Part shown: positions 16,130 to 47,648 of the stretch, one piece after another
Numbering within the stretch: position 1 is the first letter of the stretch
Layout: each line of letters starts with the position of its first letter
From: Gemmatimonadaceae bacterium
GTDB lineage: Bacteria > Gemmatimonadota > Gemmatimonadetes > Gemmatimonadales > Gemmatimonadaceae
Length of the DNA: 64,000 nucleotides
Direction of reading: 5' to 3'
Assembly: GCA_036496605.1 (NCBI GenBank)
Contig: DASXKV010000046.1
Span: 1-64,000 of the forward strand
Notes under the pieces: generated by a model
The model's database searches: none
Told to the model about the DNA's origin: nothing
The model's input: the letters and a program-made list of their open reading frames with translations, nothing else
Program-made: the position numbers and the translations under genes

Positions 16130-16142
16130 CTATAGACTTCAA

Positions 16143-20739: not shown

Positions 20740-20775
20740 TCCAAATGCTTCGACGATCCGCCAGTCAACTCGACG

Positions 20776-21504
20776 TCAGCGAACGAGCTGCGTCGCGACC
20801 GCGAGATCGGATTTACCTGAATGCAACGAGATCGCAAAACCGACATAGAGCACCAGAGCGAGGACGCCAGCCGCGGCGGCCGTCGCGATGAGGCGTGGTA
20901 CCCATACATCGCGTGGCTGCCCAATCTCGGTCGACGACGGACGCCACTCCGGTGAGAGCTCGCCAACTCCCCCGTGCACCCGATCGATCTTCTCCGAGAG
21001 TTGTCCGGCTAGCACCTGTAGCTCCGAACCTTGCGACGCGCTGTAGCGTCCCTTGTAGCCGAGGAGCAGACAGAGCTCGTAGACCTCGAGCACATCGGCG
21101 AGATCCTCGGAATCCTGCCGCCCGAGCAGTTGCTGCAGGTACTGGAAGAACAACTCGCCGGCCATGTGAACGCCGAACACTTCCTGCTGGAGTGGCCGGC
21201 GGGGCCAATCGGCGAACATGGCCTGCCCCGAGTTGAGTACCGTCTCATCGAGAAAGGCGATGACGGCGAAAAGGCCGAGCCGGATGTCGTCCGCCGCGTA
21301 GCCCGCCTGTCTCGCCTCCTGCTCGGCGCCCGCGAGGACCTGCTTGATGCGCGCGCGGAAGGACTCGCCGTCGGCCGCGACCTGCCGGTTCGCGCGCAGG
21401 CGAGCGATCGTCGTGAACGGCTCCTGGAGAGAAAGCGCCAACAGACCTCGACGCGTCGCGTCGGAACCGACGCCGCGCGGTCTTTCGGTTGCCACTGCTG
21501 TCAT
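20776..21504 (-). CDS. tssL: Type VI secretion membrane protein TssL (DotU family)
   Basis: A 242-residue tail-anchored inner-membrane protein linking TssM to the baseplate via TssK. The DotU domain shows the conserved LGLFAVIAFLDETVLNS and the AGELFFQYLQQLL segment followed by the YELCLLLGYKGRY motif. One membrane helix near the C-terminus (about 206-230, LIATAAAAGVLALVLYVGFA). No peptidoglycan-binding OmpA-like extension is present, unlike some TssL. It sits directly upstream of tssM. A terminator hairpin separates it from tssK, so tssL-tssM probably have their own promoter within 21505-21570. Confidence 0.94.
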   Translation of the reverse strand: MTAVATERPRGVGSDATRRGLLALSLQEPFTTIARLRANRQVAADGESFRARIKQVLAGAEQEARQAGYAADDIRLGLFAVIAFLDETVLNSGQAMFADWPRRPLQQEVFGVHMAGELFFQYLQQLLGRQDSEDLADVLEVYELCLLLGYKGRYSASQGSELQVLAGQLSEKIDRVHGGVGELSPEWRPSSTEIGQPRDVWVPRLIATAAAAGVLALVLYVGFAISLHSGKSDLAVATQLVR

Positions 21505-21570
21505 GAAACCACCCCGTCCTGCAACTGTGATCGTGAGGCAAGTCGACTGAATCGCGGGCTAACATAAGGA

Positions 21571-21602
21571 AAGGGCCGGCATCGCGGGAGGAGCCGGCCC
21601 TT
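21571..21602 (-). terminator. Terminator after tssK on the minus strand
   Basis: AAGGGCCGGC (21571-21580) pairs with GCCGGCCCTT (21593-21602) over a 12-base loop. Read on the minus strand, the stem is followed by TTTCCTTATG, a moderately U-rich tail. It lies 38 bases beyond the tssK stop and 66 bases before the tssL start, and so splits the minus-strand genes into tssK and tssL-tssM units. Confidence 0.7.
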
Positions 21603-21639
21603 GTTGCATCGAGCGCCCAAGCGCACGAGGCAGCCAGTG

Positions 21640-22986
21640 TCAATCTTCGGCGACGATCACCAGTTCCACTTGCGCGTTCGGGATGGCGTCCGGCAGGTAA
21701 ACCCCGATCTCGTGCGTCGTGTTGAGCGTCTCCCAGCACGGTCCCGCGCGGTCGATGGAGAAGTACTGCGTATCGGAGCGCGGAGCGATCGCGGCCGGCG
21801 GAAACTGAATGTGCTGTATGCGCAGTCCGGGGAATGCGCGGCGCACCAGCTCGAGCGTGAACTTGGCCGAGCACACCTTTGCCAGCTGGGGAACGCGCGC
21901 GGCGAGCTCCACGCCGGTGAGCGACGACCGCACTCCGAGAATCCAGCGCGACCGGCCGAACGCTCGCTGATCGGCAATCGCGCCCGTATGCAGGAAGGCA
22001 GTCGTCGCCTTCAGTTGTACGACGGTTCGCGCCGCAGGAGTCACGACTTCGAGGTTCGCGCGAATATGCTTGTCGAGCGCGTCGAAGGATTCCTGCGGAT
22101 GATCGTGATCGTAGAGCGGCAGCGCCCTCGGGTGCGCATCGAGCGCGAAAGTGCACAGGGCGCCCGCCAGTCGAGAGAGCTCGACATAGAGCTGCTCCGG
22201 ATGGACGCGCTTCACCTGAGCGATGTGCCGAAGGGCAGGGAGCGTCGAGTCGATCGCGTGGAGAAGCCAGAAGCTGGCGACTTCCTGCCGCGCAAATTCT
22301 TCCGCGCTGCCGCGGCGGCCACGCGCCATCGAATCGCTCTTGGCGTCTAGAATGTCGATGAGACGTCCGAGTAGATGCATGAGCCGCGTACTCGCGCCGA
22401 CCTGGACGCACGGGGGCACGTACTCAGGGTCGTATATGAAGTGACCGGCGCCATCTCGTTTGACGCGAGCGATCGGAATCGAGACAACGTCATCGAGGGG
22501 CTCGATATCCAGAGCGAGACGCAGATTCTTGCGTCCGATGCTCACCGGTTTTTCGTCGCGGCCGGTGGTGTCATCGAGCATCGGAGCGGCCTCAGCTCGG
22601 TATCGGGCGCCCGAGCCGTTCGTCTCCCCATTCTGACCAAAGTTGGGTTGATCGGCGCGATACGCGGGGATCGTGAGAAGAACGAGGTGTGACTGCTGCG
22701 TCGGGGAGAAGAGCTCGCGGACGTCGAGTGGGCCAGGCGCGGCATCGCTCGCGGGAATGTCGAACGGCAGGCCATCCGGCATCATTCCGCGGGCGTGAAT
22801 GAGGGAAACCGCATCGTTTCGGATTGCTTCGGTGTCGAGCTCGCAGCCAGCCAGCCCATATGGCGCAAAGAAAAGACTCGAGATCGCGAACTGAATCGCG
22901 TCCTCGAAATACCGGCTCTGCGCCTGGAAATGATGCTGGGCCAGGTGCATACCTTCGTTCCATACCACGCGCGAAAGCTGCTTCAT
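21640..22986 (-). CDS. tssK: Type VI secretion baseplate protein TssK (first copy)
   Basis: A 448-residue baseplate connector that binds the sheath/baseplate through its N-terminal shell and the TssL/TssM complex through its C-terminal domain. The N-terminal family pattern is clear: VVWNEGMHLAQHHFQAQSRY, followed by the APYGLAGCELD and MMPDGLPFDIP segments. VIVAED ends the protein. It shares overall layout with the second tssK at 24843-26204 but differs in most residues, so it is an old paralogue and not a recent duplicate. It diverges from the proline-rich gene at 23174, with a shared 187-base promoter region. Confidence 0.94.
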   Translation of the reverse strand: MKQLSRVVWNEGMHLAQHHFQAQSRYFEDAIQFAISSLFFAPYGLAGCELDTEAIRNDAVSLIHARGMMPDGLPFDIPASDAAPGPLDVRELFSPTQQSHLVLLTIPAYRADQPNFGQNGETNGSGARYRAEAAPMLDDTTGRDEKPVSIGRKNLRLALDIEPLDDVVSIPIARVKRDGAGHFIYDPEYVPPCVQVGASTRLMHLLGRLIDILDAKSDSMARGRRGSAEEFARQEVASFWLLHAIDSTLPALRHIAQVKRVHPEQLYVELSRLAGALCTFALDAHPRALPLYDHDHPQESFDALDKHIRANLEVVTPAARTVVQLKATTAFLHTGAIADQRAFGRSRWILGVRSSLTGVELAARVPQLAKVCSAKFTLELVRRAFPGLRIQHIQFPPAAIAPRSDTQYFSIDRAGPCWETLNTTHEIGVYLPDAIPNAQVELVIVAED

Positions 22987-23173
22987 CTCCGCTCCGTCCT
23001 TCGATCTATTGGCACTGCCGGCGATGTGAGGCGCTCGGCGAGCACCGGCACTATATTGCGTGCCCCTGCCCCCGTGGGAAACTGCTGGGGGATTTTCGGT
23101 TCGTCATTGCCCGGATGGACATCGCTGGCTCGCGTCAGCCGCTGGGCGTTAACGTACCCCCTGCGGGTCGCCG

Positions 23174-24671
23174 ATGACAAGCACTGAATTCGCTGCCAGA
23201 TACCGACTACTGAAGAACGTCGCCACGCGTGGCGCGCGGAGTTTTCTTGCCCAGCAGGTCGCGCTCGGGCGGATGGTCATGGTGCACTATCTGGACTCCG
23301 AGACTCCCGAGCAGCGATCGGCGACGGTCGCTCGTCTGGACTCGCTAAAGCCCCCCGCGCGCGAGAAGATGCTCGAGATCATCGATGTCGACGGCTCGCC
23401 TGTCGCCGTCACGTTGTTCATTAGCTCGTTCGCCGACTTTTCGACCTGGCTCGATCAGGTCAGTGTGCCTGCCACCTCGGTACCTCTCGCGTCACCGGTC
23501 AAGGCCCCCGGTGACTTCACGCGCGCGTTCAACAAGATCGAAACGCCGGCTGCACCGCCGGTCATGGCGCACCGAGTCGAGCACGAGCCCGCGCGAAAAG
23601 CATCGATCCCGGCTGCGCCTTCACCTGCGCCAGCCAGACCAGTACAGAAATCAGCGGGCGAGTTCACGGGCATCTTCGGTAACATGGGCGCCGCGGCTTC
23701 GGCTCCTGCTCCCGCGCACAAGGAGCCAGCCTCGAAGGCCCCATCCCCGGACCAACTGAATTCACCGACACTGATTATCGCCGCACCGAAGCCTTCGCCA
23801 CGTCCGGCGTCTCCGGTCGCGCAGCCTCCGTCTCCGGCCCCAGCTCCGGTTCCGGCGCCGGCTGAGGGCGCGGGATTCACCGCGATCTTCGGTCGTATCG
23901 GTGAGACGCGTCTTCCAGACGAGCTACCAGCGGAAACGCCGAAGCCCTCGGCGCCGGCGGCGGGAGCTGGACGCGTGATGCAACCGGCCCCAAATCCCAC
24001 ATTCGATCGATCGTCGGCACCGCCGGCGAATGCACCACCGCAGCCGAGCGGCGGCGAGTTCACGCAGCTGTTTCAGCGACTGTCGGCGACGACAGCGCCC
24101 TCGTCGGCACCTTCTCCTGCAGCGCCCCAGGCAGCGCCGCCGATGATGCCGCCGCCCGCGTTCGGGTCGCCGGCAAACGCGGCAGGCCCGCTCGATCCAT
24201 CGCCACGGATCGATCTGATGCCACCCGCGATGGCGGCGATCCCGTCCACGATCCTGCCCCCACCTTCGTTAGGTGGCGCCGCGCCGCCGGCGCCTTCCTT
24301 CGGGAGCGTCCTTCCTGCTCCGTCGTTCGGTATGACGCCGCCGCCAAGTTCGCCGACGGCCTCGCGCCTTCCCGACACGCCGGCAATGCCTAACGCGCCG
24401 CCATCGGCGCCTAACGCCCCAATGATACCGCCGTCGCCGTGGGGCGTCGCGCCGGCCGCCGGCATGTTCGGCAGCCCGGCACCGCAGAGCGATTACACAC
24501 GAATAATGGGGCGAGTGGTGGTGCCGCCACCGCCTCCGATCGCGATCCAACCTCCCACCGCGAGCCCGGCCGCGCCGGCTCCGAAGGCGTCGAAGTCGAT
24601 GTTGCCACTCGTCATCGCTTTCAGTGTCGTGATCCTCGCGACGGTCGCGATCGTCGCGTGGATGGTCTTGC

Positions 24672-24682
<11 letters not shown>
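23174..24682 (+). CDS. Proline-rich tail-anchored protein with repeated GEFTxxF-type motifs
   Basis: A 502-residue protein of unknown function. Residues 1-100 form a small alpha/beta domain (YRLLKNVATRGARSFLAQQV, GRMVMVHYLD) that looks like a degenerate kinase N-lobe. Residues 105-475 are an Ala/Pro-rich linker containing a repeated short motif: GDFTRAFNK (113-121), GEFTGIFGN (162-170), GFTAIFGR (234-241), GEFTQLFQR (294-302), with a weaker SDYTRIMGR (439-447). A single membrane helix ends the protein (about 478-497, MLPLVIAFSVVILATVAIVA). The last codons and TAG stop lie inside the flanking TAGAGGG repeat. It sits between the two tssK genes, so a T6SS envelope role is inferred, possibly as a flexible tether whose motifs bind a partner. 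Confidence 0.8.
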
Positions 24683-24842
<160 letters not shown>

Positions 24843-24850
<8 letters not shown>

Positions 24851-26204
24851 TAGCCCCTAGCAACACCACCAGCTCCAGCTGCACGTCCCCAAGTCCCGCC
24901 GGTACGTACGCGGCAATGTTGCGGGCGCGCGAAACGGCCTCCCACTCTGGTCCTGCCTTCTGGAGCAGGAAGTAGTGGTAGTTCAGCTTCACGGGGACGG
25001 CCGTCGGCGGCGTCGGAACGTAGGTGAGCGCGATCCCGGCGAGTGCCTGACGAATGAGGTGATCCAGCTGACCGGCGGCGCTCACCTTCAGCAAACTCGG
25101 TACGCGCTGGACCAGTTCGTTCGCGGGAACCGTGGACGACGACGAGACCGCGAGGAAGATCTGCGGTGCCGCAAGATATTTGTCCTGATCCAGCGCGGCT
25201 GCGTGCACGGACGGCTGCACGACGCGCAGCGGAATCGACACGGTGCTCGCCGGCACGACGGTCTCGAGGAGCTCACGGAGTTGCTCGTCGAGCTTCGTGA
25301 AGCAGGCGCCGAGCTCGTCGTGCTCGTACGCCGGCAGATCGCGCGGATGAATGCGCATCGAGAACGTCGTCAGCGCACCCGCCAGCTCGAGCATCATCTC
25401 GAAGAGCGCGACCGGATGTCCTCGCCGAGTCTCGTAGAGATGCCGCAGCAGCGGGAGATGACTGTTGACCGTATAGAGTAGCCAGAAGCTCGCCACGTCC
25501 GCGATCCCAAAGTCGGCGAGGCTCTGATTCTTCTGACGCCTCATGCCGGAAAGCTGGGTGCTCTTCGCGGACAGGATCTCGATGAGCCGGCGAGCGATCG
25601 CCATGACGTACTCGCTCGCCTCCACGTCTATGAGTGGCGGGACGAACGCCGACGACAACTGGTAATCGCCGGTGGTGGTTCGCGTTAGGCGTGCGGCCCG
25701 AAGTATGGTGCTGCCTTCGGCCGATTCCCCCTCGAAGAGGATGCGGAAGTTCTTCCGGGCAACTTGAATCGGCCGTTCGGATCGCCCGGTCGTCTCGTCG
25801 CGGCGCAGCAGCTCCTCGGCGCGATACCGCGTGTCGCGCTCACGTTGCGCCGCGGAAACGTTGTGTCCACCGTAACGGTATTCAGGGATCGAGAGGTAGA
25901 CGTCGAGCGTTTCCTGATCCTGAGCAAACGCACCCTCGAGCTGCTTTGGAGGCGGCGTCGGGTCCGAGAGGGGCATGTCGAACAGGAGGCCGTCCGGAAA
26001 GATCCCGGAGGCGGACGCGATGGCGAAGCTGCCGCCCGCGAGTGCCTCGCGATCGATCTCCAGCCGGCGAAATCCCCACGGACTGAAAACCAGCGACGAG
26101 AGCTGGAACTCGAGGAGGTCCTCGAGGAATCGGTCCTGGGTCTGGAAGTGCTGAGGACTGAGCAGGACGCCCTTCGTCCAGAGCACGGGCTGCATCTGCC
26201 GCAT
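24843..26204 (-). CDS. tssK: Second TssK-family baseplate protein
   Basis: A 453-residue TssK paralogue. The N-terminus has the family pattern (PVLWTKGVLLSPQHFQTQDR, FSPWGFRRLEIDREAL, GIFPDGLLFDMP). The middle contains the TssK shoulder region with the conserved SIPEYRYGG, and the C-terminal domain that would contact TssL is complete (YVPAGLGDVQLELVVLLGAK). Full length argues against decay. A single locus with two distinct full-length TssK proteins is unusual. The gene diverges from the first methyltransferase gene (142 bases between starts), which groups it with the methyltransferase/TssBC-fusion module. Either the two TssK form mixed assemblies or each serves a separate sheath set. Confidence 0.92.
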
Positions 26205-26214
26205 GGGCCCTAAG

Positions 26215-26290
26215 GTAGGCGAGCGAAGGGGCTCGGTGCTAGAGGCCAGGGGCTAGGGCAACACACCACCAATCACCAACTACCAACCGT
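26215..26290. repeat. Short degenerate heptad-like repeat in the tssK2/methyltransferase gap
   Basis: A G-rich part (GGTGCTAGAGGCCAGGGGCT) is followed by a CCACCAATCACCAACTACC-type part. This is the same style as the larger intergenic arrays but short and degenerate. It lies in a divergent promoter region, so it is not simply a terminator here. Confidence 0.5.
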
Positions 26291-26347
26291 TGCACTTCGA
26301 GCGTCCCGTTCCCCATACTGGCTCCCCGCATTCTCCCCCCAAATCGC

Positions 26348-27901
26348 ATGTGCGCTCACGTCGCCGATTCGCCCTCAGCTGCTCTTCTCGCCAGTTACGA
26401 CGCCGTGCCGTATGGCGGAGGCGCGATTGCGGGGACGCGGCCCGACTACCTCGCCGCGGTCGCTCGCTTCCGCGGACTCTCGACGCCAGACGTTAGGCGG
26501 TGCCGCGTGCTCGACGTCGGCTGCGCCACTGGTGGCAATCTGCTATCGATGGCGCTCGCATTCCCCGAGAGCAACTTCGTGGGCATCGATCTGTCGCCGC
26601 GACAGATCGAGAGCGCGCGAGCCGCGGCGCGAACCATCGGCCTCGAGAACGTTCGCTTCGAGGCGATGAGTGTCATGGATGTCGACGAGGATTTCGGCAC
26701 CTTCGAGTACATCGTGAGCCACGGCGTCTACTCGTGGGTTCCACCCGACGTCCAGCACGCGATTCTGAGTGTTTGCTCACGCAATCTCGTTCCTGACGGC
26801 ATCGCGTACGTCAGCTACAACACATATCCCGGCTGGCACGCGCGTGGGCTCGTGCGCGAGATGATGCTCTTTCATGATCGGCCGCAGCTGAGTCCCTCGG
26901 AACGCGTGCAGCGCGCCCGTGATCTGCTCGAGTCCGTCGCGAAGGCGGTGCCGAAATCCGACGAGGTGTACGCCGCCGTTCTGCAGGAGGAGATTCACAC
27001 GCTCAGCGACGCGAGCGAGTCCTATTTCATGCACGAGGAGCTCGAGTCGGAGAACCATCCAGTCTACTTCATCGATTTCGCGCGTCGCGCGGCGGCGGTC
27101 GGGCTTCAGTACGTCACCGAGGCAACAGCGTCATTGACCGATACGCAACTCAGTCCGGAGCTCCGGGCCAAACTGCGCTCCTGGTCTACCGATAATCTCC
27201 AGTACGAGCAGTACTTCGATTACGTCAGAAATCGCACGTTCCGTCGCTCGGTGCTCTGCCACGCCGGCCGAGGCGTCGAGAGCGAGCCGGTGCCGACGTG
27301 GGTGCCGGAGATGGTCACGCGAGCCCGCTGCTATGTCGACGCGGAGGCACCAGAGGCGAAGCAACCAGGAGTCGAGGTCTTTCGCACGCACGAAGGCGTC
27401 GCTGCAACGATGGCCCATCCGCTCGCGCGCGCTGCATTGCACTCGCTCATCGATGCGCGTCCAAGCGGTTTGTCCTTCGAGGCGCTCGCCGCCCGGACGC
27501 AGGAGCGCATGGAGGGCGGGGACGGGTTTTCCCGCGAGACACTCGCCGACGCGATGCTCCGTTGCGCGCTGGTCCGACTCGTGGACCTAACGATGGCTCC
27601 GACGCCATGCTGCTCGACGCTCAGCCTGCAACCAGTCGCGAGTCCGCTCGCCCGCCTCGAATCGCGCAACGAGTCTCTCGTGACGTCGCTCCTGCACGTG
27701 GCCGTCGAGCTCTCTCCATTCGATCGATTTGTGCTCCAGCAACTGAACGGAACACGAGATCATGGAAAGGTCGTCGACGAAGTCATGGCAGCGATTGCCC
27801 GACGCGAGCTCGATCTGGGACCGGCGGAGCGCGGCGCCGTCGCCTTGGCCGTGGACCACGCGTTTCAGCAATTTCGACTGTCGGGATTACTCATCGCCTA
27901 G
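26348..27901 (+). CDS. SAM-dependent methyltransferase with methyltransferase regulatory domain (PKMT type)
   Basis: A 517-residue class I methyltransferase. Residues 45-180 are the Rossmann fold: motif I VLDVGCATGG (54-63), acidic Asp81 ending strand 2 (VGIDLSPRQ), and GTFEYIVSHGVYSWV as motif IV region. Residues 200-310 match the regulatory domain found in protein lysine methyltransferases such as the rickettsial outer-membrane PKMTs (YFMHEELESENHPVYFIDF, VRNRTFRRSVLCH). The last 150 residues are a winged-helix-like C-terminal domain. No Shine-Dalgarno is seen. The gene is followed 83 bases later by the TssB/C-like fusion. The known family and the position suggest it methylates lysines of a T6SS protein; the target is inferred. 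Confidence 0.88.
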   Translation: MCAHVADSPSAALLASYDAVPYGGGAIAGTRPDYLAAVARFRGLSTPDVRRCRVLDVGCATGGNLLSMALAFPESNFVGIDLSPRQIESARAAARTIGLENVRFEAMSVMDVDEDFGTFEYIVSHGVYSWVPPDVQHAILSVCSRNLVPDGIAYVSYNTYPGWHARGLVREMMLFHDRPQLSPSERVQRARDLLESVAKAVPKSDEVYAAVLQEEIHTLSDASESYFMHEELESENHPVYFIDFARRAAAVGLQYVTEATASLTDTQLSPELRAKLRSWSTDNLQYEQYFDYVRNRTFRRSVLCHAGRGVESEPVPTWVPEMVTRARCYVDAEAPEAKQPGVEVFRTHEGVAATMAHPLARAALHSLIDARPSGLSFEALAARTQERMEGGDGFSRETLADAMLRCALVRLVDLTMAPTPCCSTLSLQPVASPLARLESRNESLVTSLLHVAVELSPFDRFVLQQLNGTRDHGKVVDEVMAAIARRELDLGPAERGAVALAVDHAFQQFRLSGLLIA

Positions 27902-27984
27902 TGTTTCGCTGGTGCGCCGGTTGAAACGGGGTGCTATCGTAGCAGAATGGCTCGTGCAGCATCCTTCGGCCTACGAGGTGTACC

Positions 27985-29439
27985 GTGCAGCCGCCGGCCT
28001 ATGGTCCTTTTCGCATTGCGCTGATCGGTGACTTCAGCGGTCGTGCGAATCGCGGCATTCTCGAAAAGGGGAAGGCGCTCGCTGCGCGTCGATCCGTGCG
28101 CGTGGATCGCGACTCGATCGACGATGCCATCGCGCACTTTGCTCCACGACTGCAACTCAACGTCGGCAGCGAAGGAGACCGTGTCGAGATCGGGTTCACC
28201 GCACTCGACGATTTTCATCCGGATGGTCTCTATGAGCGGCTTCCGCGCTTTCGCGCTCTTCGCGACGCGGGCGCGCGCGCGCTCGCGTCGGCGTCGTTCC
28301 TGTCTTCGCGGATGCCAACGCCGCCGACGCCAGCCGGCGCTCTCGACGCAATTCTTGGCGACGCCCCAATGCCACCCGGCGGTGCCGCCCTCGCAAAGGC
28401 GCCGGCGCGACCAACGCTCCAACCTTCGGACAGCGCCCTGTCGGAGTTTGTCCAACGCGCCGTGGCGCCTCATCTCGTTCGCACTCCGGACCCTACCGCC
28501 CAGGAGATCAAGGCCGGCGTCGACGCCGCGGTGACGGCCGAGTTGCGCGCGATCCTGCATGATGCGGATTATCAGGCGCTCGAGGCTGCATGGCGAGAAG
28601 CCGCCTTCCTCGTTAGGCGACTGGATACCGATTCGGCTCTTCAGGTTCACGTCGTCGATATCTCTCGCGAGGAGCTCGCCGCCGATCTCGCCACGGACGA
28701 CATCGAGCGCTCGGGTCTACATCGTCTCCTCGTCGAGCAGAGCGTCGGAACACCCGGGAGCGATCCGTGGGCGCTGCTCGTCGCTTTGTCCACGTTAGGT
28801 CGCGACGAGAACGATCTCGCGCTCCTCGGCCGTCTGGGACGCGTCGCTCGTGATGCAGGGGCCCCCTTTGTGTCCGGTGGCTCGTCTGCGCTCGTCGGCA
28901 CCGAATCGATCGCGGCGACGCCCGATTGCGATGATTGGATGGCCGAGGCACCGAACGGCTGGCCAGCCCTGCGCGCCTCGAGCATCGCGCCGTACGTGTC
29001 TCTCATCGCACCGCGCATTCTATTGAGGCTTCCGTACGGGAAGCGCACCGACGAATGCGAGCTCATTCAGTTCGAGGAAAACGTGCCGGACACACGTCCC
29101 GAGCACGAGAGTTATCTCTGGGGCAGCGGCGGCGTCGCGGCCGCGTTGCTCATCGGCGAGGGGTTCAGCGAATACGGCTGGAACCTCCGGCCCGGACGCG
29201 AGATCTCGAATCTCCCGCTCCACGTTTATCGCGCCGACGGCGAAACGATCGCGACACCATGCGCGGAGGCGGTGTTGAGTGAGCGCGCCGCGGAACGGCT
29301 GCTGGAAAGCGGACTGTCGCCGCTGCTCACGGTGCGCGACAGCGACGCCGTGATCTTCCCGCGCCTGCAATCGATCGCGGAGCCATTGACTCGGCTGCGC
29401 GGTCGTTGGAACACATCGAACGATGCCGACGGCGACTGA
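27985..29439 (+). CDS. TssB-TssC-like fused sheath protein
   Basis: A 484-residue protein starting at GTG. Residues 1-105 resemble TssB (RIALIGDFSGRANRG aligns with the VGVLGDFSG-type start; IGFTALDDFHPDGLYERLPR with TssB FESLDDFNPE). An Ala/Pro-rich linker follows (106-150). Residues 155-475 are TssC-like (DADYQALEAAWREAAFLVRR corresponds to TssC DFQKLEGTWRGLKYL; APRILLRLPYGKRT to LPRILIRQPYGRD; SYLWGSGGVAAALLIGEGFS to YAWAGASWALASRI). It is shorter than TssC alone plus TssB. Separate tssB and tssC exist downstream, so this is an additional sheath-type subunit. It overlaps the second methyltransferase by 17 bases, tying the two together. It may cap or vary the sheath, or build a separate short tube. 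Confidence 0.87.
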   Translation: MQPPAYGPFRIALIGDFSGRANRGILEKGKALAARRSVRVDRDSIDDAIAHFAPRLQLNVGSEGDRVEIGFTALDDFHPDGLYERLPRFRALRDAGARALASASFLSSRMPTPPTPAGALDAILGDAPMPPGGAALAKAPARPTLQPSDSALSEFVQRAVAPHLVRTPDPTAQEIKAGVDAAVTAELRAILHDADYQALEAAWREAAFLVRRLDTDSALQVHVVDISREELAADLATDDIERSGLHRLLVEQSVGTPGSDPWALLVALSTLGRDENDLALLGRLGRVARDAGAPFVSGGSSALVGTESIAATPDCDDWMAEAPNGWPALRASSIAPYVSLIAPRILLRLPYGKRTDECELIQFEENVPDTRPEHESYLWGSGGVAAALLIGEGFSEYGWNLRPGREISNLPLHVYRADGETIATPCAEAVLSERAAERLLESGLSPLLTVRDSDAVIFPRLQSIAEPLTRLRGRWNTSNDADGD

Positions 29440-31030
29440 CAGCCGTTGGACGTCTGAACCTTTTCGGCCCGGCAATTCGGGCCAGTTCGCGCGCGTCCGC
29501 GAGCTCTTCCTCCGGAGCGGATTCGAGGAGACCCCCGTTTGCGCTCGCGCCGGGGTTGATTCGATTTATGAGTTTCCTCGTCCAGAGGGGCGGAGCGCGT
29601 TCAAGGACGTTTCTGACGCGCAATCGTTGTTCGTGAGGCTCTTCGTGGACGGGGATCGCGTCGCGCGGAGCGTTGCCGAATCGATGCTCTCGCCGGGCGA
29701 CGTCACAGTGCTCGAGGATCTCGGGCTCCTCCACGCCGTGCTCGAGGAGCCTTCACTCTGTACGGCGACGGTCGCGATCTACCCCGTCGAGGAGCTCTAC
29801 ATCGCGTCCGACCGTCGTCACGGCTTCGAGAGCACGCAGGAGGTCCCGCCGTCGGATCTTGTCTTCTCGCCGATGACGCGCGAAACCCAGCGCTTTCTTC
29901 GACTCATGCCGCGCGAGTCGTGCGAGCACCTATTGGATCTGTGCACGGGTACGGGCATCGCGGGACTGGTCGCCGCGGCGCGCTTTGCCCGGCGCGCCAC
30001 GCTCGTCGATATCGCCGAGCGGTCGGTTCGATTCGCCGAATTCAACGTGGCGCTGAACGGTCTCGCGAATGTGCGCGTGCTGCGGGGCGACGTCTACTCC
30101 GCGTTAGGCGACCAGCGCTGCGACGTCATCATCGCGCATCCGCCTTATGTGCCGGCGCTCCAGACAGAATTCGTGTTTCGTGACGCGGGTGAGGACGGCG
30201 AGCAGGTGACACGCCAGATTATCGCAGGGCTAGCCGAGCATCTCACGCCGGGCGGGCAGTTCTTCTGCGAGTGCATGCTCACCGAGCGCGAAGGGGACAC
30301 GCTCGAGCAGCGGCTGCGATCCATGCTTGCCGAGTCGAGCGACGACTTCGACGTCGTTCTGGTTCAGGGACGCGGTCTTGATCCGATGCACTTTTTCGCG
30401 GATCAGGCAAAGGCGGGATATGCGCCGTTCGAACGACTCGCGGAGATGAGTGAGACGCTCGAGCGATTGCGCATTCAGCAGCTGGTGTTCTGCTCGATCC
30501 TTTTCCAGCGTCGGGCGACGGACCGTGCGGTGATTACCACGCGGCGCGCCTTGTCGCCTCTCACCAGCTCGCCCGATCTGCAGTGGGTGCTGCGCTGGAT
30601 GGTCGGTACGGCCAATTGGGACGCGGCGCTGTCCCGCCGGTTGCTGGCGAGTCGTCCGCGCACGCTGCCGCACACCGAGCTGCGATCGCGCTCGATGCTG
30701 CACGATGGCCAGTGGTCGGTGGACGAGTGTCAGTTGGTGACGCTCGCGCCGTTCGCGGTAGAGGCGGCGTGCCCGAACTGGTACGCGACGTTGTTGCAGT
30801 TCTGCGATGGGCGAATGACCGCCCGCGAGCACCTCCAGTACCTGCGGGACACCCGGGCGGTGCCGGATGCGGCGCCGGAGGACATGTTCGCGATGATGAT
30901 TCGCCAGCTGGTGGACGCGGGGTTGATCGAGATCGACGAGTTTCGGCTGCCGGATTCGACGGCAATGCGGGAGAGTGCCGGGGTTCGAGAGCGGCCTACC
31001 GGAAGCCGCCCGGTCGAACGAGCCGACTAG
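29423..31030 (+). CDS. HemK/PrmC-like SAM-dependent methyltransferase with extra domains
   Basis: A 535-residue protein. Residues 1-150 are an alpha-rich N-domain. Residues 165-305 form a class I methyltransferase with motif I LLDLCTGTGIAGL (170-182), acidic Asp196 region (ATLVDIAERS), and motif IV AHPPYVPA (238-245). The latter replaces the Asn of the NPPY motif of HemK/PrmC glutamine and DNA adenine methyltransferases with His; N-to-H variants may alter the substrate. Residues 310-535 include a helical segment and a winged-helix-like end (SMLHDGQWSVDECQLVTL, LLQFCDGRMTAREHLQYL) resembling the C-terminal domain of the first methyltransferase. ATG overlaps the preceding stop by 17 bases. Probable protein methyltransferase for a T6SS component; substrate unknown. 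Confidence 0.85.
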   Translation: MPTATDSRWTSEPFRPGNSGQFARVRELFLRSGFEETPVCARAGVDSIYEFPRPEGRSAFKDVSDAQSLFVRLFVDGDRVARSVAESMLSPGDVTVLEDLGLLHAVLEEPSLCTATVAIYPVEELYIASDRRHGFESTQEVPPSDLVFSPMTRETQRFLRLMPRESCEHLLDLCTGTGIAGLVAAARFARRATLVDIAERSVRFAEFNVALNGLANVRVLRGDVYSALGDQRCDVIIAHPPYVPALQTEFVFRDAGEDGEQVTRQIIAGLAEHLTPGGQFFCECMLTEREGDTLEQRLRSMLAESSDDFDVVLVQGRGLDPMHFFADQAKAGYAPFERLAEMSETLERLRIQQLVFCSILFQRRATDRAVITTRRALSPLTSSPDLQWVLRWMVGTANWDAALSRRLLASRPRTLPHTELRSRSMLHDGQWSVDECQLVTLAPFAVEAACPNWYATLLQFCDGRMTAREHLQYLRDTRAVPDAAPEDMFAMMIRQLVDAGLIEIDEFRLPDSTAMRESAGVRERPTGSRPVERAD

Positions 31031-31084
31031 CGGTTCTGTTGCACAGGCGCCGCAGGGGCAACGACTTCGCCCTTGTCAACTCGC

Positions 31085-31113
31085 TTGACGATGGGCCGCA
31101 ACGAGTGCATGAT
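31085..31113 (+). promoter_or_regulatory. Candidate promoter of the tssB operon
   Basis: TTGACG (31085-31090) and CATGAT (31108-31113) are separated by 17 bases, a 5/6 and 4/6 match to the sigma-70 consensus. The gap between the second methyltransferase and tssB (259 bases) holds no other gene. The predicted start near 31120 would leave a leader of about 170 nt. Unproven. Confidence 0.35.
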
Positions 31114-31289
31114 AGGCCCCACTGACGACCGCTTAGTCACCAATGCGGTCGACATCAGTGTGCGGCCGCGCACGATCACCGGCGAGTGTGTTAGCACCCC
31201 TCGATGGCATTACGCGGCGCAGACATCAAGCACGTTGCGCCCCCTCGAGCGTGACGCTGCAACTTTTTTCCCAAGACCCGGAGCACCAT

Positions 31290-31808
31290 ATGGCACGCGA
31301 GGGCACACAGAAAAAGCTGGAGCGTGTCCGGCCGCCACGCGTCAACATCAGCTACGATGTGGAGACCGGCGGCGCGGTCGAGACGAAGGAGCTTCCTTTC
31401 TTGATGGGCGTTCTCGCTGATCTCAGCGGGAATCCGGCGGAGGCACTGCCGCGGCTCAAGGATCGGAAGTTCGTCGAGGTCAACCCGGACAACTTCGATT
31501 CGGTCCTCAAGAGCATGAGGCCGCGCGTCCAGTTCACCGTCGCGAACAAGCTGAACCCGGAGTCGGGCGGGAAGATCGGCGTCGACCTCACGTTCGAGTC
31601 GCTCGACGACTTCAATCCGGAATCAGTGGCAAAGAACGTCGGTCCGCTCAAACAGCTGCTCGAGCTGAGGACTAAGCTTGCGGATCTCCGCGGCAGTCTC
31701 CAGGGCAATGACAAGCTCGAGGAGATTCTTCAGAGTACGCTCAACAACGCCGACGCGATGAAGAAGCTCGAGTCGGAGGTCGGACTCCAGGGAGGCTCCG
31801 ATGCCTGA
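31290..31808 (+). CDS. tssB: Type VI secretion sheath small subunit TssB
   Basis: A 172-residue sheath protomer partner of TssC. Family features: RPPRVNISYDVETGGAVETK, ELPFLMGVLADLSGNPAE, RKFVEVNPDNFDSVLKSM, FESLDDFNPESVAKNVGP, and the C-terminal helix LEEILQSTLNNADAMKKL. ATG 31290 begins the conserved MAREGTQKKLERV; upstream extension in the same frame to 31143 is not TssB-like. The stop overlaps the tssC ATG by 8 bases, typical of this pair. The TssB C-terminal helix can interact with ClpV in some systems. Confidence 0.96.
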   Translation: MAREGTQKKLERVRPPRVNISYDVETGGAVETKELPFLMGVLADLSGNPAEALPRLKDRKFVEVNPDNFDSVLKSMRPRVQFTVANKLNPESGGKIGVDLTFESLDDFNPESVAKNVGPLKQLLELRTKLADLRGSLQGNDKLEEILQSTLNNADAMKKLESEVGLQGGSDA

Positions 31809-33288
31809 GATGCAGGCGCAAGGCCAGCAACAGACCACCTTCGACGCCGCGGCGGAAGGCAGTCTTCTCGACAAAATTGTCGACCAGGGGCGGCTCGGCC
31901 GTGACGCTGCCGCCAAAGAACGGGGCAAGGATCTGGTCAAGAACTTCGTCACCGAGGTGCTCAAGGGCACGGTGACGATCGCCGCCGATACGGAGGCGAT
32001 GATCAACGCCCGCATTGCGCAGATCGACGACCTGATCTCGACGCAGCTCAACGAGGTCATGCACCACCCCGATTTTCAGAAGCTGGAAGGGACGTGGCGC
32101 GGTCTCAAGTACCTGCTCGGCAATACCGAGACGGGCGAGAAGCTGAAGATCAAGGTCTTCAACGTCTCGAAGAAGGATCTGCTCAAGGACCTCCAGAAGG
32201 CGCCGGAGTTCGATCAGAGCGCGCTCTTCAAGAAGGTCTACGAGGAGGAGTTCGGCGTGTTCGGCGGCACGCCCTTCGGTGCGCTCGTCGGAGATTACGA
32301 GTTTGGTAGGGGCGGGCAGGACGTGGAGCTGTTGGAGAAGATCTCGCAGGTGGCGGCGGCGGCGCACGCGCCATTCATCGCCAATACCAATCCCGACATG
32401 TTCAACATGGAGAGCTACACCCAGTTGGACGCTCCCCGGGACATGGCGAAGATCTTCGACACGACCGAGTACGCGAAGTGGAAGAGCTTCCGGTCGAGTG
32501 AGGATTCCCGGTACGTCGCCCTCACCCTGCCGCGCATCCTGATTCGCCAGCCCTACGGCCGCGACACGGTGCCGGTGGAGGACTTCGATTTCGAGGAGAA
32601 GGTCGACGGCACGGATCACTCGAAGTACGCCTGGGCCGGTGCGTCGTGGGCGCTCGCGTCGCGCATTACGCAGTCGTTCGCGCTCTACGGCTGGTGCGCC
32701 ACGATCCGTGGGGTGGAGAGCGGCGGCCTCGTCGAGGGGCTGCCTGTCCACAACTTCAAGACGGAGTCGGGCGACGTCGCCATGAAGTGCCCGACGGAGT
32801 CTCCGATCTCCGATCGTCGCGAGAAGGAGCTGGCCGATCTTGGCTTCGTTCCGCTCGTGCACTGCAAGGGAACGGACTACGCCGCCTTCTTCAGCGTGCA
32901 GTCGGCGCAGAAGGCGAAGACCTACGACTCCGACGCGGCAACGGCCAACGCGCGCATCTCGGCGCAGCTGCCGTACATCTTCGCCGTGTCTCGGTTCGCG
33001 CACTATCTGAAGGCGATGATGCGCGACAAGATCGGCGGCTACACGTCGCGGTCCGAAGTCGAGCGTTTCCTCAACAACTGGATCAACAACTACACGGTAG
33101 CGAACGACGACGTCGGCTTCGAGATGAAGGCAAAGAATCCGCTGAAGGAAGCGCGCATCGAGGTGGTGGAGATTCCCGGGAAACCGGGCTGCTACCGCGC
33201 GGTGGCGTTCCTCCGGCCGCACTTCCAGCTGGACGAGCTGACGATGTCGATGCGTCTGGTCGCCGATCTGCCGGCACCAGCGAAGTAG
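31801..33288 (+). CDS. tssC: Type VI secretion sheath large subunit TssC
   Basis: A 495-residue contractile-sheath protein of normal length. Landmarks: AEGSLLDKIVDQGRLG near the start, the EAMINARIAQIDDLISTQLN helix, DFQKLEGTWRGLKYL, YEFGRGGQDVELLEKISQ, TLPRILIRQPYGRDT, and the C-terminal EVVEIPGKPGCYRAVAFLRP and HFQLDELTMSMRLVA. Together with TssB it forms helical rings around the Hcp tube; contraction drives the tube out. The gene overlaps tssB by 8 bases. Expression is likely matched with hcp, which starts 171 bases downstream. Confidence 0.97.
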   Translation: MPEMQAQGQQQTTFDAAAEGSLLDKIVDQGRLGRDAAAKERGKDLVKNFVTEVLKGTVTIAADTEAMINARIAQIDDLISTQLNEVMHHPDFQKLEGTWRGLKYLLGNTETGEKLKIKVFNVSKKDLLKDLQKAPEFDQSALFKKVYEEEFGVFGGTPFGALVGDYEFGRGGQDVELLEKISQVAAAAHAPFIANTNPDMFNMESYTQLDAPRDMAKIFDTTEYAKWKSFRSSEDSRYVALTLPRILIRQPYGRDTVPVEDFDFEEKVDGTDHSKYAWAGASWALASRITQSFALYGWCATIRGVESGGLVEGLPVHNFKTESGDVAMKCPTESPISDRREKELADLGFVPLVHCKGTDYAAFFSVQSAQKAKTYDSDAATANARISAQLPYIFAVSRFAHYLKAMMRDKIGGYTSRSEVERFLNNWINNYTVANDDVGFEMKAKNPLKEARIEVVEIPGKPGCYRAVAFLRPHFQLDELTMSMRLVADLPAPAK

Positions 33289-33459
33289 CAGTCGCTGTCG
33301 CGGTGTGTCACGAGCGCATCACTGAAATTCACAACGCGCTCGTGACCGCCGATACGGCACGCGCGAGGACGCAGTGTTACTGTGTTCGCGCGCAAAGCAC
33401 AGAGGGCCCTCGCGAAGACTCCCGGTTCATCACCTCATCACGTTTGGCGGAGAACTCCC

Positions 33460-33948
33460 ATGGCTTCGGTTGACTATTTCCTCAAGATCGACGGCATTGC
33501 CGGCGAATCTCAGGACCACAAGCATAAGGACGAGATCGAGATTTCGAGCTGGAGCTGGGGTGAGGCGAATTCGGGCTCGCACGCGGTCGGTGCTGGCGGC
33601 GGCGCCGGGAAAGTCCAGATGCAGGACTTCCACTTCACGATGTCCGAGAACAAGGCCTCGCCCCTTCTGATGCTGGCGTGCGCCGGCGGCGATCATATCA
33701 AGAAGGCGCAGCTCACCTGCCGCAAGGCGGGCAAGGATCAGCAGGAGTTCCTCGTCATCAAGTTCTCGGATCTCCTCGTCAGCTCGTATCAGACGGGCGG
33801 TAGCGCGGGCGCCGAGATCATCCCGGTCAATTCGATTTCGCTCAACTTCAGCAAGATCGAATACGAGTATAAGCCACAGAAGGCGGATGGCACGCTCGAT
33901 TCGCCGGCGAAAGCTGGCTGGGACATCAAGGCCAACAAGAAGGTCTGA
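33460..33948 (+). CDS. hcp: Type VI secretion tube protein Hcp (TssD)
   Basis: A 162-residue tube protein that stacks as hexameric rings and carries or caps effectors. Family hallmarks: MASVDYFLKIDGIAGESQDH, EIEISSWSWGEAN, the VQMQDFHFTMSENKASPLLM segment, and the beta strands LISL-type NSISLNFSKIEYEYKPQ. Upstream in-frame ATG 33382 was rejected; ATG 33460 has a TTGGCGGAG Shine-Dalgarno-like region and starts the canonical MA-x-DYFLKIDG. A very stable hairpin lies just after the stop, which would allow hcp to be expressed above the genes downstream. No C-terminal extension effector domain is present. Confidence 0.97.
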   Translation: MASVDYFLKIDGIAGESQDHKHKDEIEISSWSWGEANSGSHAVGAGGGAGKVQMQDFHFTMSENKASPLLMLACAGGDHIKKAQLTCRKAGKDQQEFLVIKFSDLLVSSYQTGGSAGAEIIPVNSISLNFSKIEYEYKPQKADGTLDSPAKAGWDIKANKKV

Positions 33949-33968
33949 GCAGCTTCGCTTCGCTGCTG

Positions 33969-34010
33969 AAGGCAAACGGCCGGCCGCCAGGGGCGGCCGG
34001 CCGTTGCCTT
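33969..34010 (+). terminator. Very stable hairpin after hcp
   Basis: AACGGCCGGCCGCC (33975-33988) pairs exactly with GGCGGCCGGCCGTT (33992-34005) over a 3-base loop, and AAGGC/GCCTT extend the stem after one bulged A. There is no U-run, so it may act as an mRNA stabiliser or partial terminator that makes hcp mRNA more abundant than the tagJ-tssA genes behind it. Confidence 0.7.
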
Positions 34011-34124
34011 CCCAGGCTGCTCGCTGGCGCTCGCGCCAAGTCTATTCGAAGTCGCTCGTGCTTCGCACTCGCTCCTGCTCCTTGGCACGCGTAATTAGCT
34101 CCTTCGTTCATGGGTACGACAATG

Positions 34125-34841
34125 ACTCCTCGCGATCTTCTGCAGGCCGGTAGGCTGGACGAAGCCATCGACGCGCTCAGTGCCGAGCTGCGCGACAATC
34201 CCACTGACTCGCGCCGGCGCACGTTCCTCTTCGAGCTCCTCTGCTTCGCCGGCAAGTACGATCGCGCCGAGAAGCAGCTCGACGTCGTCGGCCAGGGAGG
34301 CAAGGAAGCCGAGATGGGCGCGCTCCTCTATCACAGCGCGCTTCACGCGGAACGGCTCCGCCAGCAAATGTTCGAGCAGAACGCCTTCCCGCTCAGCACG
34401 CCTCCAAAGCCAGTTTCGGGAACGCTAAACGGGCAGCCCTTCGAATCGCTCACCGACGCCGATCCTCGCATCGGAGCGCGTCTCGAGCTCTTCGCCGCCG
34501 GCCAGTATACCTGGCTTCCCTTCGAGCACGTCGAAACGGTCCAGATGCTGCCGCCGAAGCGCTTGCGCGACATGCTCTGGGCGCCCGCCATCGTTCGGCC
34601 TAACGAACGGTTCTCTGGCATGGAGATGGGCGAGGTCATTGTTCCGGCGATCGCGCCGCTCACCTGGCGTCACGCGGACGGACCGGTGCGGCTCGGTCGC
34701 GTCACGCAGTGGCAGCTGCTCGACGACGATACCGAAGCACCCATCGGCCAGAAGCTGCTGCTCGTGGACGGCGAGGAGTTTCCGATCCTCGAAGTCCGTG
34801 AGCTGACGATTACGTCATCCGCACCAACCACCGCTGATTGA
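34125..34841 (+). CDS. tagJ: TagJ/ImpE-family T6SS accessory protein
   Basis: A 238-residue ImpE-family protein. The N-terminal 100 residues carry short helical repeats (MTPRDLLQAGRLDEAIDALS, LCFAGKYDRAEKQLDVV), and the C-terminal half has the family core (FPLSTPPKPVSGTLNG, LELFAAGQYTWLPFEHVE, PKRLRDMLWAPAIVR, EVIVPAIAPLTW). TagJ proteins modulate sheath/ClpV interplay by binding TssB in some T6SS. I chose ATG 34125 over 34110 because family members begin directly with the LLxAGxLxxA repeat. It stands between hcp and tssA, whose ATG follows 8 bases after its stop. Confidence 0.85.
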   Translation, partial: TPRDLLQAGRLDEAIDALSAELRDNPTDSRRRTFLFELLCFAGKYDRAEKQLDVVGQGGKEAEMGALLYHSALHAERLRQQMFEQNAFPLSTPPKPVSGTLNGQPFESLTDADPRIGARLELFAAGQYTWLPFEHVETVQMLPPKRLRDMLWAPAIVRPNERFSGMEMGEVIVPAIAPLTWRHADGPVRLGRVTQWQLLDDDTEAPIGQKLLLVDGEEFPILEVRELTITSSAPTTAD

Positions 34842-34849
34842 GTATCACC

Positions 34850-36640
34850 ATGTCGCTGCGTGACGAACTCCTGACGCCAATTCCAGGCGGGAATCCTGCC
34901 GGGATCGAGCTGCGCTCCGATCCTGTCTACGACAAGATCAAATTTGCGCGGCGCGAAGACGACGACATGCCGCAAGGCGGCTGGGAGACCGAACGCAAGA
35001 CGGCAGACTGGTCGCAAGTCATAAAGCTGACAAAAGACGCGATCGCCAATAAATCAAAGGACCTTCAGCTCGCTGTGTGGATGGCCGAGGCGATCCTCGT
35101 CCGCGAAGGGTTCGCGGGCTTCCGCCATGCACTCGACACCATCGTCGGCCTGCTCGAGCAACACTGGGAACACCTCTACCCGGAGATCGACGACGGCGAT
35201 GCCGAGGCACGCGCCAACACCCTCGGTTCGTTAGGCGGCGAAAAAATGGCCGTGCGCGTCCGTCGCCTGCCGCTCAACAAGGCTGGACACGACGTGGGTC
35301 AGATTCAGCAAGCGAACCGCGTCCCGACCGAGGCCGATGCCGCCAACGACTCCACAAAGGCGGAGCTTCGTCAGACGCTCGTCGCCGAAGGGAGGGCGAC
35401 GCCCGAGGATGTCGAGAGTGGTTTCCGGGCGACGCCAAAGCCCTGGTTCAAGGCGCTCGTATCTGACATCGATGGGTGTCTCCAGCTCCTTCAGAATTTG
35501 GACGAGGTCTGTGCCGAGCGCTTCAAGAATGACGGTCCAAGTTACGAACCAGTCCGCAAGGCGCTCGAGGAGGTGCAGCGCACCTCGAAGCAACTACTCA
35601 AGCGGAAGCTCGAGGTCGAGCCGGATCCAGTTGGGACGACGGCGACTGAAGCGGATGCTCCAGTCGTCGTGCCCGAGGGCATGCTCTTGCCGGGGTCCGT
35701 CGGCGCGCAGCTGTCTGCCGTCCCCACGTCGCGTGAGGACGCCGCGAGTCGAATTGCGGCGAGCGCCAAGTATCTGCGGCAAACCGATCCGACAAATCCG
35801 GCCGCCTACCTTCTGTTGCGTGGACTCCGCTGGGGTGAGCTACGCGCGTCCGGCAGTTCCCCCGATCCACGACTACTCGAGGCGCCCGCGACCGCGACGC
35901 GCACTCACCTCAAGACGCTCCTTCTCGACTCGAAGTGGGAACAGCTGCTCGAAGCCTGCGAAGGCGTCATGGCCACGCCGCAAGGTCGCGGCTGGCTCGA
36001 CCTCCAGCGTTACGCGCTCACGGCGTGTGAGCAGCTCGGTGCGGAGTTCCAGATCGTCGGCGCGGCGTTGAGAGGCGCGCTCCGATCGCTGCTCGCCGAC
36101 CTCACCGGCCTTGTCGACATGACGCTCATGGACGACACGCCGACGGCGAACGCGGAAACGCGCAAATGGTTAGGCGCGATCGTCGACGCAGAAGTCGCCG
36201 TCCCTGCCGCTGATCAGAGCGCGGACGAAGTCGCGCACGAGCCGTTGCGCCCACGCGGCGGCCGGAGCGCGGCGATGGCGGAGGTGCGCGCGGGCCGCAC
36301 CGATCGCGCCATCGCGCTGCTCATGCGTGAGGCGGCGAGCGAAAAGACAAAACGCGGGCGCTTCCTGGTACAGACCGAGCTCGCGAGCATCATGGTCGAT
36401 GGTGGACATCACGTCGTCGCGCAGCCGATTCTCGAAGAGCTCATCGCGCATGTCGAAGGGCACAAGCTCGAGGATTGGGAGAGCGGAGACGTCGTCGCCA
36501 AACCGCTCGCGCTACTCTATCGCTGTCTCGAGCGGGTCGACGGAGACCCGAGCACTCGTCAGGCACTCTACCTTCGCATCTGCCGGCTCGATCCGGTGCA
36601 GGCAATTGGCTTTGCCAATGGCGGAGGCGCGTCGGCATGA
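34850..36640 (+). CDS. tssA: Type VI secretion baseplate/tail protein TssA (ImpA N-terminal domain)
   Basis: A 596-residue TssA. The ImpA N-terminal domain starts with LLTPIPGGNPAGIELRSDPV and SDPVYDKIKFARREDDDMPQ, followed by WSQVIKLTKDAIANKSKDLQ and LAVWMAEAILVREGFAGF, LLEQHWEHLYPEIDDGD. A middle helical region carries PTNPAAYLLLRGLRWGELR. The C-terminal part resembles the long TssA type (ERVDGDPSTRQALYLRICRL). TssA caps the growing tail and recruits sheath subunits. ATG 34850 is preferred over TTG 34838. Its stop overlaps the tssE start (ATGA). Confidence 0.92.
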   Translation: MSLRDELLTPIPGGNPAGIELRSDPVYDKIKFARREDDDMPQGGWETERKTADWSQVIKLTKDAIANKSKDLQLAVWMAEAILVREGFAGFRHALDTIVGLLEQHWEHLYPEIDDGDAEARANTLGSLGGEKMAVRVRRLPLNKAGHDVGQIQQANRVPTEADAANDSTKAELRQTLVAEGRATPEDVESGFRATPKPWFKALVSDIDGCLQLLQNLDEVCAERFKNDGPSYEPVRKALEEVQRTSKQLLKRKLEVEPDPVGTTATEADAPVVVPEGMLLPGSVGAQLSAVPTSREDAASRIAASAKYLRQTDPTNPAAYLLLRGLRWGELRASGSSPDPRLLEAPATATRTHLKTLLLDSKWEQLLEACEGVMATPQGRGWLDLQRYALTACEQLGAEFQIVGAALRGALRSLLADLTGLVDMTLMDDTPTANAETRKWLGAIVDAEVAVPAADQSADEVAHEPLRPRGGRSAAMAEVRAGRTDRAIALLMREAASEKTKRGRFLVQTELASIMVDGGHHVVAQPILEELIAHVEGHKLEDWESGDVVAKPLALLYRCLERVDGDPSTRQALYLRICRLDPVQAIGFANGGGASA

Positions 36641-37170
36641 CGAAGCGTGAGATCGAGCGCACCGTCCAGCCGTCACTGCTCGACCGTCTGACGGATTACG
36701 AGCCACGCAACAACAGCGAGGGCCGCGTGGGCTATCTCGAGTCCGTTCGACAGTTCAAGATGGGACTGCAGCGTGATCTCGAGTGGTTGCTCAACACACG
36801 GCGCATCCCGGTCACGGCGCCGGAAGAATTCGAGGAGCTAACGCGCTCGGTCTATCACTACGGTCTGCCGGATCTCACGTCGATCAGTCGCGATTCGCAC
36901 GAGGCCCGCGATCGTCTGGTCCGCCGTGTCGAGGACGTGATCGCGCTGTTCGAGCCGCGACTCGACAATGTCGCGATCAACGTTTTCGAAGTGGAGGGCG
37001 AGGAGCATCGTCGCGAGCTGCGCTTCCATGTCGAAGGCACGCTCCTCATGGATCCGACGCCGGAGCAGGTGATCTTCGACACGGTGCTTCATTTCTCGAG
37101 CGGCGAATACGAAGTCGGTGGAGCGGGAGGCGACAAGGCGCCCTCTGCGGGAGCTGGTCGCGGTGCGTGA
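36637..37170 (+). CDS. tssE: Type VI secretion baseplate protein TssE (gp25-like)
   Basis: A 177-residue gp25-like wedge protein. It contains the family core QPSLLDRLTDYEP, FKMGLQRDLEWLLNTRRIP, YHYGLPDLTSIS and ENVAINVF-type strands (DNVAINVFEVEGEEHRRELR), ending in TPEQVIFDTVLHFSSGEYEV. It nucleates sheath assembly on the baseplate. Short acidic/Gly-rich tail. Its ATG overlaps the tssA stop and its TGA overlaps the tssF GTG, so tssA-E-F are tightly coupled. Confidence 0.95.
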   Translation: MTKREIERTVQPSLLDRLTDYEPRNNSEGRVGYLESVRQFKMGLQRDLEWLLNTRRIPVTAPEEFEELTRSVYHYGLPDLTSISRDSHEARDRLVRRVEDVIALFEPRLDNVAINVFEVEGEEHRRELRFHVEGTLLMDPTPEQVIFDTVLHFSSGEYEVGGAGGDKAPSAGAGRGA

Positions 37171-40098: not shown

Positions 40099-40161
40099 TC
40101 ACCGCGTGCCTGCAACCAGCACCCAGCACCTGACACTTTCCAGCCCCTAGCCCCTCGTCTC

Positions 40162-42978: not shown

Positions 42979-43004
42979 TCTCGGAACTTCGGAGGGTGTG
43001 AACG

Positions 43005-47198: not shown

Positions 47199-47206
47199 GA
47201 GAGCCC

Positions 47207-47590: not shown

Positions 47591-47648
47591 TTTGCTGTCG
47601 CACGCATTAGCCGCGTTGCGAAACATTGGAGTCTTAGGAGGTCTCAAA

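Follow-up and report, generated by a model that had tools for sequence, protein, structure and literature searches.

In the solved TssB1C1 sheath of the type VI secretion system (T6SS), the handshake sheet that joins protomers combines TssC strands 11 and 12 with strand 13 from an adjacent TssC and with strand 1 from a TssB in a different protofilament (Salih 2018, PMC5807055). The TssC C-terminal domain supplies three of the four strands and the TssB N-terminal arm the fourth, and the arm is a lateral contact within the disc, not a link from disc to disc (PMC5807055). ClpV of V. cholerae docks on a TssC hexamer of the LLDEII type, at which position another class of TssC has EFASLL (Forster 2014, PMC4239648). 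The closest described relative of the protein considered here is TssCL, reported from roseobacters in 2022 as a 1,684-aa protein that carries two VipA domains, occurs in Alphaproteobacteria only and is thought to be recent (PMC9515649). TssC40/ImpD of Agrobacterium and Rhizobium is a second, diverged TssC encoded beside the normal pair, and in Agrobacterium it is needed for Hcp secretion and is not redundant with TssC41 (PMC3702570). The same account of the solved sheath describes the R2 pyocin as lacking domain 3 (PMC5807055).

The window analysed here, a stretch of 64,000 nucleotides from a Gemmatimonadaceae bacterium, contains a T6SS cluster (Table 1) in which one ORF with a GTG start encodes a TssB-like domain, a disordered linker and a TssC-like core as a single chain. 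The first-pass annotation had described this arrangement, with an Ala/Pro linker between the two domains, in a gene that is shorter than the full pair and stands beside separate tssB and tssC, and all of this is borne out by the Pfam matches, by the full length of both neighbouring genes, and by the size of the fusion, 484 aa as against 221 + 495 aa. TssCL likewise combines VipA and VipB in one chain, is annotated as tssC, and occurs beside normal tssB and tssC (PMC9515649). Compared with TssCL as described there, the window protein has one VipA match and neither a long N-terminal extension nor a second VipA domain, and the family to which it belongs is mostly of ∼500 aa with one VipA part, occurs in several phyla, and appears to be old.

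Table 1. Features of the T6SS cluster and of the TssB-TssC fusion in the window, with the evidence for each.
Feature	Coordinates	Strand	Evidence
T6SS cluster: TssM, DotU/TssL, two TssK, fusion, methyltransferases, TssB, TssC, Hcp, TagJ, TssA, TssE, TssF, TssG, ClpV, VgrG	17278..45113		Pfam
MT1, protein lysine methyltransferase 1 (PKMT1) homologue	26348..27901	+	PDB 5dnk, E 1.4e-73, residues 16-491; PKMT_2nd, MethyTransf_Reg
TssB-TssC fusion (FUS), 484 aa	27985..29439	+	ORF, Pfam; AlphaFold2 pLDDT 89.2, pTM 0.86
TssB-like part, residues 8-109, with long C-terminal helix 87-109, without N-terminal arm	28006..28311	+	PF05591 at 8-95; AlphaFold2; arm lengths
Ala/Pro-rich linker, residues 110-148	28312..28428	+	pLDDT <50 at 119-148; unconserved columns
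ClpV-docking-like hexamer within linker, residues 119-124, ALDAIL (family LLDxIL)	28339..28356	+	alignment columns 202-207; pairing with cognate TssC
Helix at place of TssC H1 (outer-layer helix), residues 149-163	28429..28473	+	AlphaFold2; joint TssC alignment; TIGR03355 match from residue 150
TssC-like core, residues 177-464, chain end without PF18945	28513..29376	+	PF05943; VIA-align
MT2, PrmC/HemK-like methyltransferase, HPPY in place of NPPY	29423..31030	+	family matches; sequence
Canonical tssB, 221 aa	31143..31808	+	PF05591, E 3e-59
Canonical tssC, 495 aa, ClpV motif LLDKIV	31801..33288	+	PF05943, E 3.9e-136; PF18945, E 1.1e-45
tagJ (ImpE)	34110..34841	+	PF07024
tssH/clpV, proposed partner of fusion	40162..42978	+	AAA_2, AAA_lid_9, ClpB_D2-small

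In Pfam, T6SS_VipA (PF05591) matches the TssB-like part over profile positions 27–116 of 155 (E 1.8e-10, 41.3 bits against a cut-off of 24), and VipB (PF05943) matches the TssC-like core (E 9.4e-54, 182.9 bits against a cut-off of 27). The scores against the NCBIfam equivalogs for TssC (TIGR03355, 181.2 bits) and TssB (TIGR03358, 38.2 bits) fall below the respective cut-offs of 271.5 and 97.25. The fusion is 25% identical to the window's TssB over 92 aa and 29% identical to its TssC over 309 aa, values which, together with the separate clade described below, rule out a recent local fusion of adjoining tssB and tssC. A search of its own genome revealed no further copy, the two matches being the fusion itself and tssC.

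The AlphaFold2 model was computed from a 66-row alignment (A2) of the window protein and 65 of the 80 relatives retained from a contig scan; residues 119–148 are disordered, and the helices that border the linker are those listed in Table 1. VIA-align superimposes the model on P. aeruginosa TssC1 (5n8n_B) with a Z of 33.3 and an rmsd of 2.6 over 308 residues, so that the check proposed in the first-pass annotation, a structure prediction for TssB and TssC folds, did find them. Among the structures that VIA-align lists, phage, pyocin and eCIS sheath proteins, in which one chain likewise covers both halves, align with most of the model at Z ∼12–17, several of them within the range 1–484 and one, 9qgl_4A, over residues 3–484 at Z 17.3. 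Such single-chain proteins keep a C-terminal domain that is absent from the fusion. When the PDB was searched with the 66-row profile, TssC chains were matched, three of them from residue 1–6 on, as were TssB chains. A viral origin was considered and rejected, the matches to phage sheaths being only weak. With canonical TssB/TssC the fusion shares the folds of domains 2 and 3, and its linker hexamer resembles the ClpV motif that stands at the N-terminus of TssC; the canonical proteins differ in being two polymerising chains equipped with the handshake domain.

The fusion chain stops before the TssC C-terminal domain. PF18945, the gpW/gp25-like domain in Pfam that by its position and from the literature we infer to be handshake domain 1, has a match in the window's own TssC and none in the fusion or in the five relatives compared with Pfam. 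Of the 80 relatives, 79 end 0–10 residues past the aligned core (one of these, L088, being truncated by the end of its contig), the exception being L115 with 60 residues. Only 8 residues precede the TssB core in the window protein, compared with 23–40 in the A2 relatives, and no recognizable TssB arm lies in frame upstream of the window fusion.

The linker contains one conserved element, a finding that goes beyond the first-pass annotation, as does the age and breadth of the family. Alignment columns 202–207 read L-L-D/E-x-I/L-L/V, with hydrophobic fractions of 0.94, 0.97, 0.86 and 0.97 at four of the six positions across the 66 rows, and the remaining linker columns are unconserved and have no such hydrophobic preference. 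A strict LLDEII-like pattern is present in 49 of the 66 linkers, compared with a mean of 0.5 and a maximum of 4 in 1000 shuffles. The hexamer of the window protein begins with Ala and, like those of 16 other linkers of the 66, does not match the strict pattern; the L111 row has no clear hexamer.

The type of this hexamer was compared with the class of the cognate TssC in 48 fusion–TssC pairs of known class, drawn from 37 of 39 tested genomes (L072, with no readable TssC, and G062 lie outside the set), eight more Gemmatimonadota, the window, and two roseobacter plasmids. The fifth hexamer residue is Leu in 14 of 14 genomes having an EF.SLL-type TssC, in 2 of 30 of the LLDQIV type, and in none of 4 of the FLEQAI type; in 28 of the 30 LLDQIV-type genomes it is Ile, Ala, Val or Met. 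The clearest pair is found in Rugamonas, with DFASLL in the fusion and DFSSLL in TssC. On the tree the hexamer type changes twice in the best topology and once as forced by starred branches, that is, in one or two independent shifts, so that the low Fisher value for co-variation is not valid evidence alone, and its use as statistical proof was withdrawn. The finding that the fusion hexamer appears to follow the type of the cognate TssC is consistent with co-evolution and does not prove it, and the motif may simply have been inherited from a TssC ancestor.

The scan of genome contigs yielded 333 relatives, of which 80 were kept. According to record titles, mostly those of metagenome bins, they belong to Pseudomonadota (32), Acidobacteriota (27), Gemmatimonadota (8), Thermodesulfobacteriota (6), Myxococcota (2), and one each to Nitrospirota, Planctomycetota, Cyanobacteriota and Verrucomicrobiota, with one lacking a phylum; the cyanobacterial bin is probably mis-binned, since its fusion sits among Competibacteraceae on the tree. 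Fifteen loci with cut, near-identical or doubtful starts were left out of A2 (L038, L045, L069, L075, L076, L082, L086, L087, L095, L098, L099, L105, L106, L113, L115). In a tree of the TssC part made by a quick method with SH-aLRT support only, 31 chosen fusions form one clade against 57 TssC and ImpD-type rows with a support of 100, and 18 alignment columns, the start Met included, are invariant across the 66 fusion sequences. Judged from these sequence comparisons, the fusion family is old and widespread over several phyla.

The roseobacter loci L029 and L030, taken to be of the TssCL type by its description and not by its published sequence, lie inside the fusion clade; the roseobacter members are a branch of the family with an acidic N-terminal array. 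A second TssC of the Agrobacterium type was rejected as an identity for the fusion: the ImpD examined, from Rhizobium, is a complete TssC that has PF18945, lacks a TssB part, and groups with TssC in the tree. Four loci (L143, L146, L148, L153) belong to gammaproteobacterial T6SS with two tandem TssC, the second ImpD-like, plus a fusion, giving three TssC-like proteins per genome. Among the papers listed by searches of the PMC library, no other description of such a fusion was recognized, and the combination of 'TssCL' with type VI secretion leads to PMC9515649 only. Relative to TssCL as described in that paper, what appears to be new is that the family is wide and old, that a domain is missing, that the linker carries a motif, and that the genes occur at orphan positions and beside methyltransferase genes. 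In the database records examined, annotation pipelines count fusions as tssC, so that T6SS surveys typed by TssC may include them.

The family is linked to T6SS by genome content. The full TssC C-terminal domain (PF18945) was found in 39 of 39 fusion-bearing genomes tested from the 80 kept. Among Gemmatimonadota it is present in 39 of 298 genomes overall and in 10 of the 11 that encode an uninterrupted full-length fusion (G000, G022, G053, G156, G163, G164, G203, G224, G248, G253, G312); the exception is G053, a fragmented assembly with the fusion at a contig end and no TssC match. The numbers of fusion carriers and PF18945 carriers in this phylum indicate that only a minority of T6SS have the fusion as an accessory. 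In the 37 scan loci flanked by 4 kb or more on each side, core T6SS genes are present in 13, spike genes only in 8, and neither in 16, and the frequent position of the fusion away from the core cluster fits action in trans. Neighbours at the solo loci belong mostly to unrelated metabolism (ten proteins), several of these loci lying amid housekeeping genes, and a VgrG neighbourhood as a universal link was rejected, only 28 of 88 loci examined falling in that cluster.

A chain that pairs the protomer core with a conserved ClpV-type hexamer in a flexible linker, and that lacks the knitting domain, is most plausibly interpreted as a non-polymerising mimic of the sheath, directed towards ClpV. We tentatively propose, with somewhat less than even confidence, a dedicated accessory role in T6SS for the fusion, as a single-chain pseudo-protomer that docks ClpV as an adaptor or regulator. 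In sequence and model it retains the TssB-TssC middle domain (domain 2), together with a helix that corresponds in position to outer-layer helix H1, and has lost domain 1, which knits protomers together; this loss would prevent it from polymerising. The ClpV N-domain would bind the exposed linker hexamer, and the ClpV-bound fusion would act in trans on sheath recycling, where it may recruit, restrain or feed ClpV; contact with the sheath, if any, would be made through the outer layer and not by forming a layer of it. In certain lineages, as here with MT1 and MT2, the fusion would recruit the protein methyltransferases encoded next to it or serve as their substrate. The broadest form of the proposal, an ancient and unrecognized T6SS part that in several phyla recruits or restrains ClpV in trans from loci outside the core cluster and in some lineages couples recycling to PKMT- or PrmC-like methylation, is doubtful as a whole. 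If fusions do dock ClpV, they would offer a handle on the control of sheath recycling in systems outside the usual models and a clue to the retention, by many T6SS carriers, of a sheath-like protein without the sheath-building domain. The idea is open to study in carriers with strain-named records (Rugamonas apoptosis LX47W, Rubrivivax sp. A210, Leisingera, Ruegeria).

Alternatively, the fusion could stand at either end of the sheath as its first or last layer, attached on one side only and setting its start or length, as the first-pass annotation had suggested in the form of a terminator or an initiator at the baseplate. The coexistence with normal tssB and tssC would suit such an end factor, as would the absence of the TssC domain that accepts the next layer in a family where most members nevertheless keep the N-terminal arm, which Pfam aligns in two relatives from T6SS_VipA profile positions 6 and 8; in the solved sheath, as described, the TssB arm joins a neighbour's handshake sheet (PMC5807055). 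However, with domain 1 three of the four handshake strands are gone, the arm contact in that sheath is a within-disc one, and at many loci the gene lies well away from those encoding the sheath. The role loses its obvious attachment with the absence of the TssC C-terminal domain and, in the window protein, of the TssB arm as well, and we consider it unlikely overall: possible for the members that keep the arm, and less so for the window member.

As a further alternative, the fusion might belong, as scaffold or as substrate, to a T6SS-linked methylation module, its sheath-like surface allowing methyltransferases of the MT1/MT2 or TPR type to modify the sheath, ClpV or the fusion itself. Here the gene lies between MT1 and MT2 and shares the last 17 bases of its 3' end with the start of MT2, and relatives of MT1 and MT2 are labelled in eight scan loci (L037, L043, L048, L054, L056, L079, L084, L099). 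Immediate neighbours, called by a simple longest-ORF rule and not by a trained gene finder, and with L045 and L088 left out of the sets, number 147, comprising 32 labelled T6SS genes and 92 unlabelled ORFs of 150–700 aa among others. One TPR-methyltransferase neighbour was confirmed by Pfam. Methyltransferase families account for 12 of the 92 unlabelled ORFs, whereas among the 69 ORFs at positions ±4 no methyltransferase occurs in the best 25 of 75 families; with one control hit assumed beyond those 25, Fisher's test gives p 0.007, although one or two such hits are possible. Most loci show no methyltransferase, and the solo loci amid housekeeping genes fit the module poorly; this reading is likewise unlikely.

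A decaying relic of a tssBC duplication would account for the missing domain and, in the window genome, the missing arm; it is very unlikely for a single clade spread over several phyla with its invariant columns and uniform chain ends. Least probable is the second, alternative contractile sheath of the first-pass annotation, for which the protomer fold speaks and against which stand the loss of the C-terminal handshake domain across the family, the missing arm of the window protein, and the absence of a second hcp or baseplate set beside the fusion within the window.

Several further observations concern the neighbouring genes. A TPR family, one member of which is the confirmed TPR-methyltransferase, and a family of 478-aa proteins without a Pfam match often occur together beside the fusion (L039, L040, L042, L052, L074, L076, L087, L100, L116). 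HemK proteins have NPPY where MT2 reads HPPY, a form present also in L003 and L004, which amounts to an altered active-site residue in a conserved T6SS-linked methyltransferase. An S-adenosylmethionine synthetase gene (16089–17228) stands at the edge of the cluster that holds the two methyltransferases. The two TssK genes, at 21640–22986 (−) and 24843–26204 (−), are different and both full length (PF05936, E 3.9e-126 and 1.6e-135), and between them lies an unrelated divergent gene of no known family (23174–24682), a TssK-U23-TssK-like order seen also in L041, L043 and L088. Downstream of vgrG, a DUF2169 protein, a ketoacyl-synthase-like fragment and an AHH-nuclease-like protein are encoded in 45121–48638, which is likely an effector region. 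In the Ruegeria and Leisingera plasmid fusions (L029:13303–16713 and L030:13132–16749), an acidic N-terminal stretch of ∼560 residues with 38–41% Asp+Glu consists of repeated DDLDLDDLL- and ILSDLADA-like units, and there is also an acidic tail that terminates in ELAALL.DL; this is possibly a multivalent docking array.
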